Part shown: positions 3,318 through 10,109 of the stretch, piece by piece
Layout: the number at the start of each line of letters is the position of its first letter
Numbering within the stretch: the stretch's first letter is position 1
DNA from: an uncultured Paracoccus sp.
Lineage (GTDB): Bacteria > Pseudomonadota > Alphaproteobacteria > Rhodobacterales > Rhodobacteraceae
NCBI RefSeq assembly: GCF_937873615.1
Contig: NZ_CALMYP010000066.1
Coordinates: 124,001-188,000 of the forward strand
Reading direction: 5' to 3'
DNA length: 64,000 nt
Notes under the pieces: model-generated
What the model was told of the DNA's origin: nothing
The model's database searches: none
Seen by the model: the letters and a program-made list of their open reading frames with translations, nothing else
Position numbers and translations under genes: made by a program

Positions 3318-4136
3318 TTATTGGCCGCTTGCCAGATAAACGGTGCCGTCAAAGCTGTTCAGCCGGGCGATCAGGTCGGGCGCGGTGTCGGCTTCGGCGG
3401 TGTTTACGGCATCGGCCAGGCGCTTCGCTGCCCCCGCACCCAGGCCCATCGAGATATAGCTGGCCGGCAGCACAAGGCTTTCGCCCGAGAAAAGCTGGAC
3501 AGACCAGCCCGCACCGTCATTGCGCAGAAAGGCCCGACCGCCCTTGTCGCCCTGCGTCCAGCCGGCGACAGCGACATTGCCCTGAACGGTGATCGGCGCG
3601 ACCGTGAGCGTCGCTTCAGGCCGCTCAAAGCTGGCCTTCATCGCCGATTCGATCTCGGTGGCATCGTCGCTGTTCTGCGACTGATCGGTCGGTGCTGCAG
3701 CGCCGTGCCCCTCTGCATCGGCGGGATCGACGGAAAACCCGATCTCGACTTTGCCTGCGTGTTCGAAGATCAGGGTTGCGGGGACCATGTCGCCTTCGGC
3801 CAGCGAACCGCTGAGGCCCTGAAGCAGCACATGCATGCCGCCCGGATGCAGTTCGACAGTGCTGCCTGCGGGAATGTCTATCGCGGCCAAGGGCGCGCCA
3901 TCGGCCCCGGCGAAGATCGCCGTTTGTGTCATGGGCGCCTCGATCCCCGTCAGTCGGTCGGGATCGTCCCCGTGGTTCTCGATGCTCATGAAGCCCTTGG
4001 CCTCAGTCGCCCCTTCCGGCGGCACGGCAATCGAAGGGTGAACGACGGTCAGGTTCTCCGCCTCCATCTGGTGTGCCAGCGCCGCGGGCGCAGCAGCAAG
4101 CAGAAATGCGGCGATCATACGCGTCAGGGTTGTCAT
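3318..4136 (-). CDS. PCuAC-family periplasmic copper chaperone with extra C-terminal domain
   Basis: 272 aa from the ATG at 4136, which overlaps the copCD stop by four bases; the open frame extends upstream but has no better start. Residues 1-21 are a signal peptide ending AALA. Residues 27-135 form the PCuAC (DUF461) cupredoxin-like domain, with GSTVELHPGGMHVLLQGL at 91-108. The usual copper ligand motif there is HxM; here it reads H102-V-L104, with M101 and H97 nearby, so the site may be rearranged. Residues 140-160 are an acidic linker. Residues 165-272 are a second domain of the kind annotated as copper-uptake-associated, ending ARLNSFDGTVYLASGQ. PCuAC proteins deliver Cu(I) in the periplasm, for example to cytochrome oxidase CuA. 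It is the last gene of the leftward copper operon. Confidence 0.8.
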   Translation of the reverse strand: MTTLTRMIAAFLLAAAPAALAHQMEAENLTVVHPSIAVPPEGATEAKGFMSIENHGDDPDRLTGIEAPMTQTAIFAGADGAPLAAIDIPAGSTVELHPGGMHVLLQGLSGSLAEGDMVPATLIFEHAGKVEIGFSVDPADAEGHGAAAPTDQSQNSDDATEIESAMKASFERPEATLTVAPITVQGNVAVAGWTQGDKGGRAFLRNDGAGWSVQLFSGESLVLPASYISMGLGAGAAKRLADAVNTAEADTAPDLIARLNSFDGTVYLASGQ

Positions 4137-5695
4137 TTCGTCTCTCCGGTTGTGGTTGTTTGCCAATCGCCGGTCAGCGAAATCTGTTCGAAATCGCTGA
4201 TCAGCAGGGTCAGGTGGATCGTCCAGGGCCCGGGCGTCGGCAGTGTCGAAGGCCCGGCGGACCATTCGCCGGGGCCGAGATGCTGCATCGGGACGGATAG
4301 CGGCCCGATGCCCCTTTGCTGGTCCGTCAGGGTCATGGTCAGTTCCTTCGGGTCCAGCGTCGCCATATCCCCGTCCATCGTCGTCACCTCGAAGGTGATC
4401 GGACCCGGGGGTGCGCCAGATGGCGTGAGCAGGGCCATCGCCCGGTCTCGATGCATGTGGATGATCTCGGCAGGCTCGGGCAGTGCAGCGGCGGGTGGGG
4501 GCGCGAACCGGAATCCCATCGCCAGTACGATCACCGCAAATCCCAGAACAGCCTCAAGGCTGATGCTGCGGGACAGTCCGGCACCCTCGCCGGCGGCCAG
4601 ACGCGGCGTCGAGACAAACCGATGCCACAGCGCCAGCGCCAGCATGGCGGAAACCAGAGCCAGCTTGACCGCCAGCAGACGCATCCAATCAGAGCCGAAG
4701 AGCCCCGGAATGCCGGTGCGGATCCAGATCAGCCCTGTGCCCGACGCGATCAGGACCAGCACAATCGGCAGCGCGAATTGCGAAAAGCGGCGCAAGATGC
4801 GCAGCCGCGCGGTGCCAAGCATCATCTGACGGGCCAGTGGCAGCAGGCTGCCCGCCCAGAACAGCATTGCGCCGGCATGAAGGACGGTCAGAAACGGCGC
4901 CAGATGCCCCGGCGCGGATCGCGCATGGCCCGAGACAGCGAAGGACAGCGCCGCCAGCAGCCAGGCGACAGGCGCCGCCCATCTGCGCCCCGACATCGCC
5001 ACAAAAGCAGCCAAGGCGGACAAGACAACCGTCGGCATGACGGGCGCCGCAAAACCGGCAGAGAGCGCAGCCCAGGACAACAGTTGCAGCGGCGACAGCC
5101 CCATGCGGTCGGCGCCCTCGGCCCCCATCAACAGAAGGCCGGCGGGCAGCACCAGCAATGCCGCCCCGATGGCAATGCGGCGCGAAACCGTATCGACCGG
5201 CGCGATCAGCCAGCCGAATACGGCGGTTCCGACCGACACCACCAGCGCCAGCACCATCACCGCCCGCAGGACCACCGGCGAGACCGCCGGACCACCTTGC
5301 GCAACCTGTGGCGCGCCGGTGATCTCACCCACCGAAAAGACCAGCCCCCCGGAGACCGGATGACCATCGGTGGAGGCGACGCGCCAACTGAGCGCATAGG
5401 TGCCAGTGGGACCGGCGGACGGCGTGGTGATGCGGAGGCCCTCACCATCGCCAACCGCTTCGGCGGGCAGGCTTGCGCCGTCCGGCGTCAACCAGTGAAC
5501 GGTCAGGACGCCGACCGGCTCGGAAAAGCGCAGCACGACTTCGGGCGGCATGGCCTGAAGCAGCGCGTCGGCCTCCGGGGTCGAGCCCCGATATTCCGCA
5601 TGCGCATGGGCCGCGACGATCCCGACGCAGAGCCACAACAGCGCAGCGCCAAGCAAGGCGCCGAACTGCCGAAGGATGTGACGGGGCCGGATCAT
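4133..5695 (-). CDS. CopC-CopD fusion, copper import membrane protein (YcnJ-like)
   Basis: 520 aa. A signal/anchor segment at residues 10-30 precedes a CopC domain (32-124) and then a CopD domain with about eight hydrophobic segments (about 140-400). If cleavage is after AHA, the mature protein begins at H32. With the D110-G-H112 motif this makes the histidine-brace Cu(II) site of CopC (N-terminal His plus DxH). The C-terminal 110 residues form a soluble periplasmic domain (TFEVTTMDGDMATLDPKELT). CopC-CopD fusions such as Bacillus YcnJ import copper. The gene sits 12 bp after ycnI and overlaps the PCuAC gene, the same gene trio found with YcnI, YcnJ and PCuAC in other bacteria. Uptake rather than resistance is therefore the favoured role. 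Confidence 0.88.
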   Translation of the reverse strand: MIRPRHILRQFGALLGAALLWLCVGIVAAHAHAEYRGSTPEADALLQAMPPEVVLRFSEPVGVLTVHWLTPDGASLPAEAVGDGEGLRITTPSAGPTGTYALSWRVASTDGHPVSGGLVFSVGEITGAPQVAQGGPAVSPVVLRAVMVLALVVSVGTAVFGWLIAPVDTVSRRIAIGAALLVLPAGLLLMGAEGADRMGLSPLQLLSWAALSAGFAAPVMPTVVLSALAAFVAMSGRRWAAPVAWLLAALSFAVSGHARSAPGHLAPFLTVLHAGAMLFWAGSLLPLARQMMLGTARLRILRRFSQFALPIVLVLIASGTGLIWIRTGIPGLFGSDWMRLLAVKLALVSAMLALALWHRFVSTPRLAAGEGAGLSRSISLEAVLGFAVIVLAMGFRFAPPPAAALPEPAEIIHMHRDRAMALLTPSGAPPGPITFEVTTMDGDMATLDPKELTMTLTDQQRGIGPLSVPMQHLGPGEWSAGPSTLPTPGPWTIHLTLLISDFEQISLTGDWQTTTTGETK

Positions 5696-5707
5696 CGCGC
5701 CGTCCCG

Positions 5708-6253
5708 TCAGTGCGCCGCCGCAGGGACGATCTTCACGCCGGGCGCCGGCCCCTCAAGCTCGTGGGGGTCCTGACCTTCGGCGGGAATCTCGATCCAGCG
5801 TTCGGCCCCGTTCGCGCATTCCTGCACGGTCGGGAAATAGACGGTCGAGCCAGCAGGGAAGGCTTCGGTTATCGTGGCGCGAAAGACGAACTCGTCATAG
5901 TATTCCTCCGGCAATTCCCCGGTCCAGACCAGTTCCTTGACGCCTTCGGTCAGCTTGGTCCCGAAATAGTCATATTCCTTCTCATAGGCGCCTTTCACCG
6001 TTTCCAGCGCCCAGCCGGCCTTGGGCATCGGCTTGACCGAAATCACCCCCTCGGGGATCTGGACGCGCAGCTTCTGGGTCGGTTCGCCGTCGCAGCCATG
6101 CCCGATCCGCATCACCGCCTTGTAGGTCGCGCCTTCGGGCGCCTCGGACTGTTCAAGCGTGGCATGGGCCAACGCGGCGGGGGCGCCAAGCATGAGGGTG
6201 GCCACGGTCGCAATGAGGCATTTCACGATGTTTGCCTTTCGGGTTTTGGGCAC
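5708..6253 (-). CDS. YcnI-family copper-binding protein (DUF1775)
   Basis: 181 aa. A signal peptide (residues 1-29, ending APAALA) puts H30 at the mature N-terminus. YcnI family members bind Cu(II) through this N-terminal histidine (a monohistidine brace) with a conserved Trp, and H30 plus W81 in KAGWALETV fit. The body matches DUF1775: YKAVMRIGHGCDGEPT at 44-59, LRVQIPEGVISVKPMPKAGW, and the late EEYYDEFVFRATI segment. It lies 12 bp before copCD and 67 bp after the PepSY gene. It probably passes copper to the CopC domain of the next gene product. Confidence 0.88.
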   Translation of the reverse strand: MPKTRKANIVKCLIATVATLMLGAPAALAHATLEQSEAPEGATYKAVMRIGHGCDGEPTQKLRVQIPEGVISVKPMPKAGWALETVKGAYEKEYDYFGTKLTEGVKELVWTGELPEEYYDEFVFRATITEAFPAGSTVYFPTVQECANGAERWIEIPAEGQDPHELEGPAPGVKIVPAAAH

Positions 6254-6277
6254 TCCTGGTGCCGGAAATCGTTGCCC

Positions 6278-6306
6278 GATGCCGCAGGCTCCACGCCGGC
6301 GGCATC
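6278..6306 (-). other. Intergenic stem-loop inside the copper operon
   Basis: Perfect 8-bp arms GATGCCGC (6278-6285) and GCGGCATC (6299-6306) enclose a 13-base loop in the 67-bp gap between the PepSY gene and ycnI. On the transcribed minus strand the hairpin has no T-run after it, so it is more likely an RNA processing or stability element than a terminator. It could set different expression for the four upstream and three downstream genes. Confidence 0.45.
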
Positions 6307-6320
6307 GCTTTTTCGAGGTG

Positions 6321-7700
6321 TCAGGACAGGGCCTGCCGAAGTGCCGGAAGCCGCTCGATGACCAGCAGATCCACCAGCAGGACCACGATCAGAGAGATCC
6401 CGGCCATCGGGAATGCCAGCGCAATGGCAAGCGCGACCAGCAGCGCCCCTTTCCAGTGCGGCAAGGCTTCTGGGCGGGGCGGCGCGGCCAGACGGCCAGC
6501 CCCTGCCGGGCGGCGCTTCCACCAGACCACCGCGCCTGAGATGCAGGTGAACAGGATTGCGCTGATCAGCACGATGTTCAGAACGAAGTTCCAGGTCCCG
6601 GCCAAACCCCTGTGCAGGGCAATGCCCCAGGCCATCGCCTTGGCCACCAGCGAGTATTCGGCATAGCCGATATCGGCCAGCACGTTGCCGGTATACTGGT
6701 CGATATGCACTGTGCGGTCGCTCGAAGGATTGACGCTGTCTTCGTTGCGCCCCTCGGCCATGACGGTATAGACGCCGGTTTCCGAGGCAGGCAGGCTGAC
6801 CTTGTATTGCCTGACAAAGCCGTTTGCAGCGGCCCATTGCACAACACTGTCAAGCGCAACCGGCGACGGAACCCCGGCAATGCCCGCATCTGTACCCGAG
6901 ACGGGCATCGGCGTCAGTTCCAGCCCCCAGGGCACCTCGTCCAGCGGGCCGTGGTTCAGCGAGGCATGGGTGACGTCCGAGGACCACATCGAACTGTTCT
7001 TTTCAGCCGGGAACGACGACCAGGGCTGGACGAATTTTCCGCCCCAGATCCCTGCCCAGGCCAGGCCCGACAAAGCGAAAAGCACGAGGAAGACGGCGAT
7101 CCATGTGCCCGTCGTCGCGTGAAGCGATTTCCAGAAGCTGCGGCCCCTGCCAGAAAGGTCGGGCACCAGCGCGCGCCAGCCCATTTTCGGCAGCCACATG
7201 TAAAGCCCCGTGGCGATGAGCAGCAGCATCAGCGAGACTGCCGCTTCGATCAGCCGGTCCCCCGCGTCGCCGATCATGAGCGTGCCGTGGATCTTGTTGG
7301 CATAGGCGTAAAGCGTTTTCGTCTTGTCGATCTGGTTCAGCACCTCGCCGGTATAGGGATTTACGGCAACCGAGATCACCGCATCGGCGTCACGGATTGC
7401 GAAGAAGGTCGGTCGGTCGACGCCCTCTGGCGCGATATACTGGTTCAGAACGCCGCCGGGAACGGTTGCCAGCGCGGCCTGGGCCTGAGTCGAGATCGGC
7501 AGCGTGCTTTCGCCCACGGCGATGTCGGCGACATAGCCCATCTGGTTGGACTGGCTGGTGGTCAGCAGCATGATCATGCCGGTGATCGCCAGCGTCATGA
7601 CGAAGGGGATGACAAAAAGCCCGGCATAGAAATGCCAGCGCCAGGCGGTGAAGTACAGCGCGTTGCTCCGCGGCGCAGCCTGTTGGTTGCTTGGTGCCAT
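6321..7700 (-). CDS. PepSY-associated membrane protein (PiuB/DUF3526-type)
   Basis: 459 aa. The ATG at 7700 is preferred over an upstream TTG because GGAAAGGAAAG lies just in front of it. The N-terminus ALYFTAWRWHFYAGLFVIPF is the PepSY_TM signature, and four further membrane segments follow at about 150, 190, 370 and 425. Periplasmic loops carry two PepSY-like stretches, NPYTGEVLNQIDKTKTLY and HIDQYTGNVLADIGYAEY. Members of this family occur with siderophore, heme and copper uptake genes and several are thought to be membrane reductases. Sitting between mbnH and ycnI, it may reduce or help pass copper, but no reaction is proven for it. Confidence 0.8.
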   Translation of the reverse strand: MAPSNQQAAPRSNALYFTAWRWHFYAGLFVIPFVMTLAITGMIMLLTTSQSNQMGYVADIAVGESTLPISTQAQAALATVPGGVLNQYIAPEGVDRPTFFAIRDADAVISVAVNPYTGEVLNQIDKTKTLYAYANKIHGTLMIGDAGDRLIEAAVSLMLLLIATGLYMWLPKMGWRALVPDLSGRGRSFWKSLHATTGTWIAVFLVLFALSGLAWAGIWGGKFVQPWSSFPAEKNSSMWSSDVTHASLNHGPLDEVPWGLELTPMPVSGTDAGIAGVPSPVALDSVVQWAAANGFVRQYKVSLPASETGVYTVMAEGRNEDSVNPSSDRTVHIDQYTGNVLADIGYAEYSLVAKAMAWGIALHRGLAGTWNFVLNIVLISAILFTCISGAVVWWKRRPAGAGRLAAPPRPEALPHWKGALLVALAIALAFPMAGISLIVVLLVDLLVIERLPALRQALS

Positions 7701-7717
7701 TATCTTTCCTTTCCAGG

Positions 7718-8827
7718 TCAAGGCATGATGCGATTGGTGTTGGCCGGATGCCCGTCCGGCCAGGGGTCGGAAAGGCGCGGATCGGACAGGAAATCCTCGT
7801 CCGTCAGGCTTTCCAGGAAGGCGATGATGTCGTCGATCTCGGCCTCGGTCGCGGTGAAGCCCGCGATCATGCCGTCCTTCATCGGATGGCCGGGTGCGCG
7901 GCCCGCCGTGGCGTAATGCGCCATCACGCCCCGCAGATCGGGGACCGAGCCGTCGTGCATGTAAGGTGCCGTCACCGCGACATTGCGCAGCGAGGGGGTC
8001 CGAAAGCGCCCTGCATCCTCGGCCCTGCGGGTGATCTCGATCAGGCCGGGGACGGCGGCGGGATAGGGGTCGTAAAGCCCGGTATTGTGGAAGCCGATTT
8101 CGGGCTGCGACGATCGCGAGGTCTGCAGATTATCCGTGAACATCGCGCCCTGATGGCAGTGATAGCACTCAAACCGATGATCAAAGAACAACTGCTCGCC
8201 GCGCTTGGCGGAGGGCGACAGGGCGTCGGTCTCGCCCCAATATTTGTAGCGGTCATAGGCGCTGTTGACCGAGATCATGCTGCGCTCGAACGCGGCCAGC
8301 GCGCGGGTGACGGTAAAGAGGTCTGGCGCGGGCCGGTCGGGGAAAGCCTCGGGAAAAGCCGTGGCGTAATAGGGATCGGCGGCGAGCAGCGCAAAGATCC
8401 GGTCGTCCTGGCCCGCGCTGCCCATCTCTTCCGGGTTTTCGCCGAACATCGGGATCAGCGACTGGAATTCGAGGCTGTCCATATGCGGATTGGCCCAGGT
8501 CAGCACCGGGAAATAACCCGCATTCGCCAGACCCGGCGCGTTCTTCGCCCCGGTGATGCCCTCGATCCCGACAGCGGTTTCCCGGCCATCGGTAAAGGCG
8601 CGCTCCTGCACATGACAAGACACGCAGGCGACCGTGCCGTCGCGCGACAGCCGGGCATCGTAGAACAGGTGCCGCCCCAAATCGACCTTGGCCGCCGACA
8701 TGGGATTGTCGGCGGGCACGGGCGGCGGCGGCATCCAGACGGGCAGCGGCCAGACGTAATCCTCGGCAGGGGCACTTTGCGCCCCGGCCAGGATCATGAC
8801 CGCCACCTGAAAGATCAGGCGGCGCAT
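7718..8827 (-). CDS. mbnH: MbnH-like diheme enzyme (cytochrome c peroxidase/MauG superfamily)
   Basis: 369 aa. A signal peptide of about 21 residues precedes two c-type heme motifs, CVSCH at 68-72 and CYHCH at 221-225, in the spacing of bacterial diheme peroxidases. DLGRHLFYDARLSRDGT (49-65) and the late FRTPSLRNVAVTAPYMHDGS segment (275-294) are superfamily hallmarks. W111 lies between the heme motifs and could be the electron relay. The gene begins six bases after the stop of an MbnP-like gene, the arrangement that defines MbnH. Studied MbnH is a MauG relative that converts a tryptophan of its partner MbnP to kynurenine. A plain cytochrome c peroxidase is the alternative, but the neighbour argues against it. 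Confidence 0.83.
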   Translation of the reverse strand: MRRLIFQVAVMILAGAQSAPAEDYVWPLPVWMPPPPVPADNPMSAAKVDLGRHLFYDARLSRDGTVACVSCHVQERAFTDGRETAVGIEGITGAKNAPGLANAGYFPVLTWANPHMDSLEFQSLIPMFGENPEEMGSAGQDDRIFALLAADPYYATAFPEAFPDRPAPDLFTVTRALAAFERSMISVNSAYDRYKYWGETDALSPSAKRGEQLFFDHRFECYHCHQGAMFTDNLQTSRSSQPEIGFHNTGLYDPYPAAVPGLIEITRRAEDAGRFRTPSLRNVAVTAPYMHDGSVPDLRGVMAHYATAGRAPGHPMKDGMIAGFTATEAEIDDIIAFLESLTDEDFLSDPRLSDPWPDGHPANTNRIMP

Positions 8828-8833
8828 CGATAT

Positions 8834-9676
8834 CTACCGTGCCGTGATCAGCGATTGCTGGCCGGCCGCCACATCCATGTAGGGCAGCCCCAGCTTTGCC
8901 ATCACCGTCATGCAATCGCCATCGTCCGGGAAGGACATGCAGCCGGGCGAGGTCTCGGGGGCGTTTACCGTCAGATCGGCATCGGCCACGACCGGCGCCG
9001 GATCGACAACCAGAACGTTCTTCGCCGGATCGAACCCGTCCACCTTCAGCGAGAGCGTGTTCGGATTCTTGCACGCGGTCGGTGCCTCGGTCTTGGAGGC
9101 GGCATCGCACATGGTCGAGCCGAGGTGCAGGAACCAGCCGGCTGCCTCATTGCCCTCGGCCTTCTGCGCGGGCACCATGTCGATGCGCACGAATTTATAG
9201 CCACCCTGCCAGTTCCAGAACATCGCCGTCGTGTTGAGCGGCGCAGGCGCAAGCGTTGGGTCGACGTGGTTTTCCTCGAAGGGAATGCCGACATCGAATG
9301 CGATGCCGGTATACTCACCTGCCGGGACGGTCCCGGTCAGCGCGGCATGGGTGCCCGGCGTGCCATTGGTGCAGCCACCGCTCGCGTCCTCGAAATCCAG
9401 CAGCGCGACATCGCCCGACTGCCACTGGCCGTCCTGATCCAGCGTGATGGGCTGTCGGCTGCCGTCCGCGCGGATCATTGCCGCGTTCGAGACAAACATC
9501 CGGAAATCGGTCGCGGTCACGTCGGCGCTGGTTGATCCCATCTCCGGATAGCTTTCCGTGCAGGAAAACGGCTTGCCGCCGATCTCGGCCACGAAGGGAA
9601 TCGTGACGTTCACGTCGTCGGCCAACGCGGGCATCGCGACAGCTGCAGCGATTGCTGCGACAAGAATATGTTTCAT
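8834..9676 (-). CDS. mbnP: MbnP-family copper-binding periplasmic protein
   Basis: 280 aa from the ATG at 9676, chosen over an ATG nine codons upstream because a clean signal peptide (MKHILVAAIAAAVAMPALA) begins there after an AGAGAGA motif. The mature protein starts DDVNVTIPFVAEIGGKPF and has the family order: TDFRMFVSNAAMIRADG (56-72), AGEYTGIAFDVGIPFEENH (119-137), FWNWQGGYKFVRID (153-166) and WFLHLGSTMC (181-190). In characterised MbnP one Trp is oxidised to kynurenine by MbnH and helps bind Cu(I). Candidate residues here are W85, W154, W156 and W181, with H137 and H184 as possible copper ligands. It is the second gene of the copper operon and directly precedes mbnH. Confidence 0.85.
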   Translation of the reverse strand: MKHILVAAIAAAVAMPALADDVNVTIPFVAEIGGKPFSCTESYPEMGSTSADVTATDFRMFVSNAAMIRADGSRQPITLDQDGQWQSGDVALLDFEDASGGCTNGTPGTHAALTGTVPAGEYTGIAFDVGIPFEENHVDPTLAPAPLNTTAMFWNWQGGYKFVRIDMVPAQKAEGNEAAGWFLHLGSTMCDAASKTEAPTACKNPNTLSLKVDGFDPAKNVLVVDPAPVVADADLTVNAPETSPGCMSFPDDGDCMTVMAKLGLPYMDVAAGQQSLITAR

Positions 9677-9743
9677 TGTGGTTCTCTCTGGCTTGGTCGC
9701 CATTGCGGCGACATCATGAGTTGATCGAAGTCGTCAGATTCGA

Positions 9744-10109
9744 TCAGGCCAGAGGTGGAGCGCGTGTCCCATGCGCGGGATCAAGAACCGCACGCCGCGC
9801 GCGGTCCTGACATGGGGCAACGATTCTCGCGACGAAGATCAGGTCGGCTTTGAAGACGCTGACGGGTGGGTCGGGCAATATCGTGGCCGCGACGATATGG
9901 CAGGCTGGGCAATCGCCAGTCATCGCCTGCTCGTCATCGCCCATATCGCCGCAAAGCGCCGAAAGATCGCCACCCGAGAGGACATAGTTTTCAAGCGCCA
10001 CATCGGATGCGGTCGGCATGCGATGGCCAAAGCCCACCGCGACAAGCGCGAAGGCGATCAGGCCGACAACGGCGACCCTGCAGACCAATGCACGAACCTT
10101 CATGTCCAT
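9744..10109 (-). CDS. Small exported or anchored Cys-rich protein (DUF2946-like)
   Basis: 121 aa, first gene of the leftward copper operon. An N-terminal hydrophobic segment (residues 10-28) may be a signal peptide or anchor. The rest carries C53, then CPACH at 67-71, and a second hydrophobic stretch (VFKADLIFVARIVA). DUF2946 proteins are small Cys-rich proteins common in copper loci, and the layout agrees, but the match is by eye. CPACH also satisfies the CxxCH rule for covalent heme c. An overlapping plus-strand frame (9771-10178) is judged a shadow because it has no family resemblance and opposes the operon. Metal binding or a chaperone role is inference from context. Confidence 0.6.
   Translation of the reverse strand: MDMKVRALVCRVAVVGLIAFALVAVGFGHRMPTASDVALENYVLSGGDLSALCGDMGDDEQAMTGDCPACHIVAATILPDPPVSVFKADLIFVARIVAPCQDRARRAVLDPAHGTRAPPLA

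Follow-up and report, generated by a model that had tools for sequence, protein, structure and literature searches.

In this study, we found that the WxW motif of MbnP is strictly associated with the presence of the diheme enzyme MbnH. Among 143 MbnP loci compared, both tryptophans of the motif were kept in all 130 loci with MbnH and in none of the 13 loci without it (hereafter, orphans). This sequence comparison supports an action of MbnH on WxW, which corresponds to W154/W156 of the MbnP that was our starting point. The link between WxW and MbnH is new as far as we checked, in open-licence literature. The starting pair lies in the window, the whole 64,000-nucleotide stretch of Paracoccus DNA analyzed here. 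It belongs to a copper operon of seven closely spaced genes on the minus strand (3318-10109), delimited by the ORF list and profile searches of the window. We consider it likely that this is a copper-acquisition operon that is on at low copper, in which MbnH would make a kynurenine Cu(I) site in MbnP, MbnP would capture the metal, and the neighbors would pass it on. The genes and motifs of the operon are given below in 5' to 3' order.

9744-10109, minus strand: CruR/DUF2946-type leader ORF, 121 aa (CPAC, 45 residues, RAPP, 2 residues, stop; PF11162 18.8 bits, below the gathering score of 23.7)
9900-9911, minus strand: CxxC motif CPAC of the leader (sequence motif)
9753-9764, minus strand: C-terminal RAPP motif of the leader (sequence motif)
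8834-9676 (ORF 8834-9703), minus strand: MbnP (TIGR04052 283.3 bits, cut-off 140; PF20243 135.3 bits, cut-off 27; PDB 7l6g, E 5e-41; structure model matched to 7l6g by Foldseek)
9209-9217, minus strand: WNW (WxW) motif of MbnP, W163-N-W165 (W154 and W156), aligned with WNW of 7l6g
7718-8827, minus strand: MbnH, MauG-like diheme enzyme (TIGR04039 400.2 bits, cut-off 362.85; PDB 6e1c 320 bits)
8612-8626, minus strand: first heme motif CVSCH of MbnH (sequence motif)
8153-8167, minus strand: second heme motif CYHCH of MbnH (sequence motif)
7913-7915, minus strand: Tyr305 of MbnH, facing Met of the classical peroxidase 4aal (alignment)
6321-7721, likely ATG start at about 7700, minus strand: PepSY_TM membrane protein (PF03929 170.4 bits, PF03413 32.4 bits)
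5708-6253, minus strand: YcnI-like protein, DUF1775 (PF07987 149.5 bits)
4133-5695, minus strand: CopC-CopD fusion (PF04234 70.3 bits, PF05425 75.2 bits)
3318-4136 (ORF to 4265; likely start 4136), minus strand: PCuAC copper chaperone fused to an NF033672 domain (PF04314 76.7 bits; NF033672 101.3 bits, cut-off 50)

The leader, the first gene of the operon, lies upstream of MbnP on the same strand and had been missed in the initial annotation. The remaining layout described there was borne out by the ORF translations and Pfam matches: MbnP, with four tryptophans, precedes MbnH, with its CVSCH and CYHCH motifs, by six bases (8828-8833), and the pair is followed by the PepSY, YcnI, CopC-CopD and PCuAC genes. 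NCBIfam cut-offs were passed by MbnP, MbnH and NF033672, and Pfam cut-offs by MbnP, PepSY_TM, PepSY, YcnI, CopC, CopD and PCuAC. Beyond the leader, genes were either unrelated or on the opposite strand. NF033672 is a copper uptake system-associated domain; among 80 loci from named genomes, 55 had a match to the PCuAC half of the fusion and 20 had one to the NF033672 half.

Both members of the pair exceeded the curated cut-offs of the families to which they had been assigned, and MbnH carries two CxxCH motifs. The PDB ranking for MbnH was headed by 6e1c, followed by 9qdt, a probable cytochrome c peroxidase, at 140 bits and by cytochrome c peroxidases scoring no more than 119 bits. A MauG identity was rejected (TIGR03791 148.6 bits, far under the cut-off of 443.85). 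A classical CcpA peroxidase identity was rejected as well, with Tyr305 in place of the Met of 4aal and 6e1c as the nearest structure. We take the Tyr305 position to be the axial-ligand site, which is Met in classical diheme peroxidases (CcpA), and Tyr occupied it in 77 of 80 MbnH sequences. The enzyme thus scored with MbnH and not with MauG or the classical peroxidases, in line with its initial annotation. Its structure model (mean pLDDT 74.2) was left out of all inference.

The start of MbnP is likely the ATG at 9676, because signal-peptide-like residues come after it. Counted from 9703, the tryptophans are W94, W163, W165 and W190, which are W85, W154, W156 and W181 in the earlier numbering. 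The WxW motif aligned with the relatives as well as with 7l6g, so that the partner of MbnH does have the expected MbnP tryptophans. In a sequence search, 7l6g was the sole PDB match. We then modeled the protein by AlphaFold2 on 52 sequences (mean pLDDT 90.7), and Foldseek placed six 7l6g chains on top (TM 0.81-0.83 by query length, E 1e-23 to 5e-22). According to this model, the window MbnP has the 7l6g fold. Work on Methylosinus (PNAS) reportedly showed conversion of the first WxW Trp to kynurenine, which creates a Cu(I) site.

Methanobactin genes had been described as missing beside the pair, and we looked for MbnB and TonB barrels in the whole genome (3.86 Mb in 74 contigs, 99.63% complete). 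MbnB (PF05114) had no match genome-wide, and the same search was positive in two of 14 control genomes; we therefore rejected an MbnB-containing methanobactin cluster at another place in the genome. Among the operon genes, neither an MbnA precursor nor MbnC was recognized from the window ORFs and profiles. The operon also has no TonB receptor, as noted before, and both TonB barrels of the genome are on other contigs. The first (L010) was closest to vitamin B12 and siderophore models, all below cut-off, and TIGR01778 (copper) was absent from the best 25 of its 33 matches. The second (L011) was closest to heme models, below cut-off, with 41.5 bits against 472.45 for TIGR01778. Neither barrel reached a copper-receptor cut-off among the matches listed, and there was no sign of a copper TonB receptor.

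The initial annotation had presented the pair outside a methanobactin operon as a surprise, and this did not hold. Conservation of the MbnP/MbnH pair far beyond methanobactin producers is described in the available part of PMC3621798. The accessible text of PMC9426467 lists MbnPH-like, PepSY_TM, YcnI, CopC, PCuAC and TonB receptor genes in operons headed by CruR, the same mix of genes. MbnH was present in 79 of the 80 named-genome loci, in one of them (L066) 2.1 kb from MbnP. In the exception (L068), MbnP is cut short at its end and the contig ends about 2 kb further on. The pair and its operon setting are already known.

The leader contains CPAC, exactly 45 residues, RAPP and then LA to the C-terminus, and its PF11162 (DUF2946) match spans positions 4-117 of 117. 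Between the leader and the MbnP start at 9676 lie 67 bases, fewer than the 162 bp given for B. pertussis in the available part of PMC9426467. A leader-gene homologue was found in 15 of the 80 named-genome loci. CxxC-45-RAPP was present in 11 of these 15 and CxxC-45-RGPP in two (L029, where the homologue is 3.9 kb away from MbnP, and L050); in L068, RAPP follows 39 residues on, and L018 had no motif match in the frame read. A crude 9-mer count revealed no convincing shared promoter motif upstream of the leader. Because the operon begins with a CruR-type leader, we predict, by analogy, that it is expressed when copper is scarce.

A role in copper resistance or periplasmic buffering, with MbnP sequestering excess Cu(I) and CopC-CopD and YcnI aiding detoxification, would agree with the copper-resistance names that CopC and CopD carry in Pfam. 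We regard it as unlikely. The leader carries the CruR motifs, and at high copper CruR reduces expression of its own operon (PMC9426467, part available). Profile searches found no copper-exporting ATPase or multicopper oxidase among the seven operon genes. The CruR-type leader and the copper-chaperone neighbors suggest acquisition instead of resistance, as had been proposed.

To place the window among its relatives, we scanned a collection of 84,980 species with a six-sequence MbnP alignment; this yielded 102 relatives, and we retained the best 80. By their titles, these best 80 of 102 came from Rhodobacteraceae, other Alphaproteobacteria, Burkholderiales and a few others, e.g., Myxococcota. 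One of the two scan patterns contains WxW, so WxW conservation in this 80-locus set is biased. PCuAC was a neighbor in 54 loci, YcnI in 11, CopCD in eight and PepSY in six. From these counts, the window's precise combination of genes is uncommon, and each part is recurrent. In the window's own family, MbnP occurred in seven of 198 genomes, its own included; of two genomes of the same genus seen, G883 had MbnP and G023 did not. Three named-genome loci (L034, L054, L064) held two nearby MbnP-MbnH pairs, one of them more divergent from the window. A second, decayed copy was seen in G034 (L117 7547-8722), with an MbnP frame of 185 aa and an MbnH frame of 204 aa without its middle part, and it sits between an intact leader-like ORF and YcnI.

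The relation between WxW and MbnH was then examined outside this set. At class level (385 genomes), MbnP (TIGR04052) exceeded its cut-off in 11 genomes and MbnH (TIGR04039) in 12, with both in 10; G378 had MbnP only. PF20243 matched in 19 of 398 genomes at phylum level, the own genome included, and in 121 of 295 genomes of the family f190, with 134 matches counted. The census of 143 comprises all 134 f190 matches, eight other phylum loci not from the own genome, and G378; one family and one phylum make up most of it. G378 was included for its lack of MbnH, and leaving it out gives WxW in 0/12 orphans. The census excludes the window and the 80 loci found with the two scan patterns, one of them WxW-containing. 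It also excludes the family-level matches, including the decayed second copy of G034 and a partial one of G113, and the nine other class-level MbnP genomes, in which the MbnP and MbnH coordinates are adjacent and WxW was seen only in G374 and G470.

MbnH always lay within 300 bases of MbnP in the fetched stretch of paired loci; for L212, the paired assignment depends on a 54-bit match of a partial MbnH ORF. The association of WxW with MbnH gave a Fisher p of about 1e-18, a value that ignores kinship. Both WxW tryptophans were lost in nine of the 13 orphans and only the first was kept in the other four, and the second was lost in every one. The positions of W94 and W190 each remained Trp in 12 of 13 orphans, which argues that the loss is aimed at WxW. 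These positions are of limited use as a control, because they are more variable than WxW in paired loci (Trp in 48/130 and 89/130, respectively). The proposal that MbnH acts on tryptophans of MbnP is thus supported for WxW.

The candidate ligands behaved differently from one another. H193 was found in 129 of 129 paired rows with a letter at that position and in eight of 13 orphans, H146 in 102/130 and 8/13, and M256 in 46/130 and 0/13. Given the counts for His146 and Met256, paired MbnPs cannot all share one ligand set. This variation would fit a modification of WxW by MbnH that yields a residue other than kynurenine, or one unable to bind copper here, with a role in redox chemistry or for another metal. 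MauG relatives are known to make other Trp products, e.g., TTQ. For the window, we find such an outcome quite improbable: its MbnP retains WNW, H146, M161, H193 and M256, the 7l6g match spans its whole length, and the genes around it are copper genes.

A divergent MbnP type was also observed in f190 (L140, L187, L204-L209, L211, L212 and L223), forming one long branch of 11 rows. Lys takes the place of Met256 in this type and His146 is mostly missing, but it carries WxW with an adjoining, lower-scoring MbnH.

We next asked how often the orphan state arose. In a tree of 43 rows, six label changes were needed, and the starred branches force at least five; an earlier tree (88 rows, 10 orphans) gave four switches. 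None of 500 label shuffles was as clustered as the observed labels. The placement of L195 and L114, on long branches, is unsure. In genus g526, the paired locus L184, with WSW, is the sister of the orphans L189, L190 and L191, and the genes after MbnP are identical in kind with or without MbnH; here, MbnH is gone from between retained neighbors. It is very unlikely that the tie between WxW and MbnH is a mechanistically empty artefact of search bias and shared ancestry: 12 of the 13 orphans come from f190, eight of them from one genus, the profiles favor WxW and G378 was chosen for lacking MbnH, but PF20243 did find members without WxW, all 134 f190 matches were examined, and the forced switches, the shuffles and the g526 sisters speak against it.

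The orphan genes are not in plain decay, because dN/dS was 0.04-0.10 in four of seven orphan pairs (with finite dS, high and rough); the other three were saturated. MbnH over the cut-off was found in none of the 13 orphans' genomes, and eight were without any match. Weaker matches occurred in G378 (148 bits), G1208 (114), G1087 (89), G1033 (274) and G973 (256). The proteins of G1033 and G973 may be real MbnHs of divergent type, because similar MbnHs adjoin a WxW-bearing MbnP in G1106 (266 bits) and in L204 of G1033. If they are real, they did not preserve the WxW of a separate orphan.

On this basis, there is about an even chance that MbnPs fall into two classes. Beside MbnH, WxW would be strict and its first Trp converted to kynurenine. 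Where MbnH was lost, MbnP would remain under selection without WxW, in a second role or with a kynurenine-free metal site, and the second Trp would exist solely for the step that involves MbnH, either to relay an electron hole or for docking.

In all six MbnH-bearing loci compared, a protein of the choice-of-anchor B family (TIGR04312; 444 bits in L149) lies divergent beside MbnP, at the following positions.

L149 3900-6641: choice-of-anchor B protein
L184 5119-7848: choice-of-anchor B protein
L185 957-3833: choice-of-anchor B protein
L186 964-3732: choice-of-anchor B protein
L188 1905-4649: choice-of-anchor B protein
L240 5499-8219: choice-of-anchor B protein

Among eight orphan loci compared, a related ORF was seen only in L154 (560 aa, farther off), and the protein may be a third partner that disappeared together with MbnH. 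In 13 of 14 loci compared, with or without MbnH, MbnP/MbnH is followed by a gene of about 110 aa (L149 8759-9106) with no Pfam match, which is absent only in L114. Two genomes, G533 (L115 6032-7120) and G345 (L116 6198-7877), had MbnH over the cut-off and no PF20243 match, in a search that was positive in no control. In place of CYHCH, their second heme motif reads CGACH or CATCH, and their MbnH possibly has another substrate. The two stretches had no common protein besides MbnH and overlapping frames.

The window pair was compared with known systems. The MbnP/MbnH of Methylosinus trichosporium OB3b (7l6g, and 6e1c as the nearest MbnH structure) shares families, gene order, the aligned WNW and the MbnP fold with it. 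Unlike the OB3b pair, the window pair is part of a copper operon headed by a CruR-type leader, and its genome has no MbnB match. MopE/SACCP and CorA/CorB of methanotrophs resemble MbnP-MbnH in that a kynurenine formed from Trp lies at the Cu(I) site of a secreted protein and a diheme peroxidase gene is adjacent (PMC3912023, available part). In sequence, MbnP is not markedly similar to MopE or CorA, according to the part of PMC3621798 at hand. MauG belongs to the same diheme superfamily and oxidizes a Trp of a partner protein (PMC3912023, same part), whereas the window MbnH falls far short of the MauG profile. The operon shares the CxxC-45-RAPP leader and the listed copper genes with CruR operons (bp2923-bfrG-bp2921 and relatives); unlike the bp2923-bfrG-bp2921 type, it has no TonB receptor and has the shorter gap after the leader (PMC9426467, in the text available).

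The copper-acquisition reading that we prefer builds on the identities and arrangement of the genes, on the motif of the leader with its spacing, and on the WxW-MbnH tie established here. By analogy with Bordetella pertussis, and from the motif and spacing, the CxxC of the leader would sense copper during translation, and arrest at RAPP would determine whether transcription is terminated by Rho ahead of the next gene. MbnP and MbnH would be exported. As in the Methylosinus pair, MbnH would oxidize the first Trp of WxW (W154) to kynurenine, creating the Cu(I) site, and the second Trp probably serves the MbnH-dependent step. MbnP would then capture Cu(I), and PCuAC, YcnI, CopC-CopD and PepSY_TM may hand copper to copper enzymes or to the cytoplasm.

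The comparison of paired and orphan loci provides independent support from many genomes, beyond one methanotroph, that MbnH acts on WxW. It singles out the second Trp as a putative MbnH-dependent residue. The orphans would offer kynurenine-free MbnPs as natural controls. The CruR-type leader leads to a simple prediction for the organism, namely that the operon would be on under copper scarcity.
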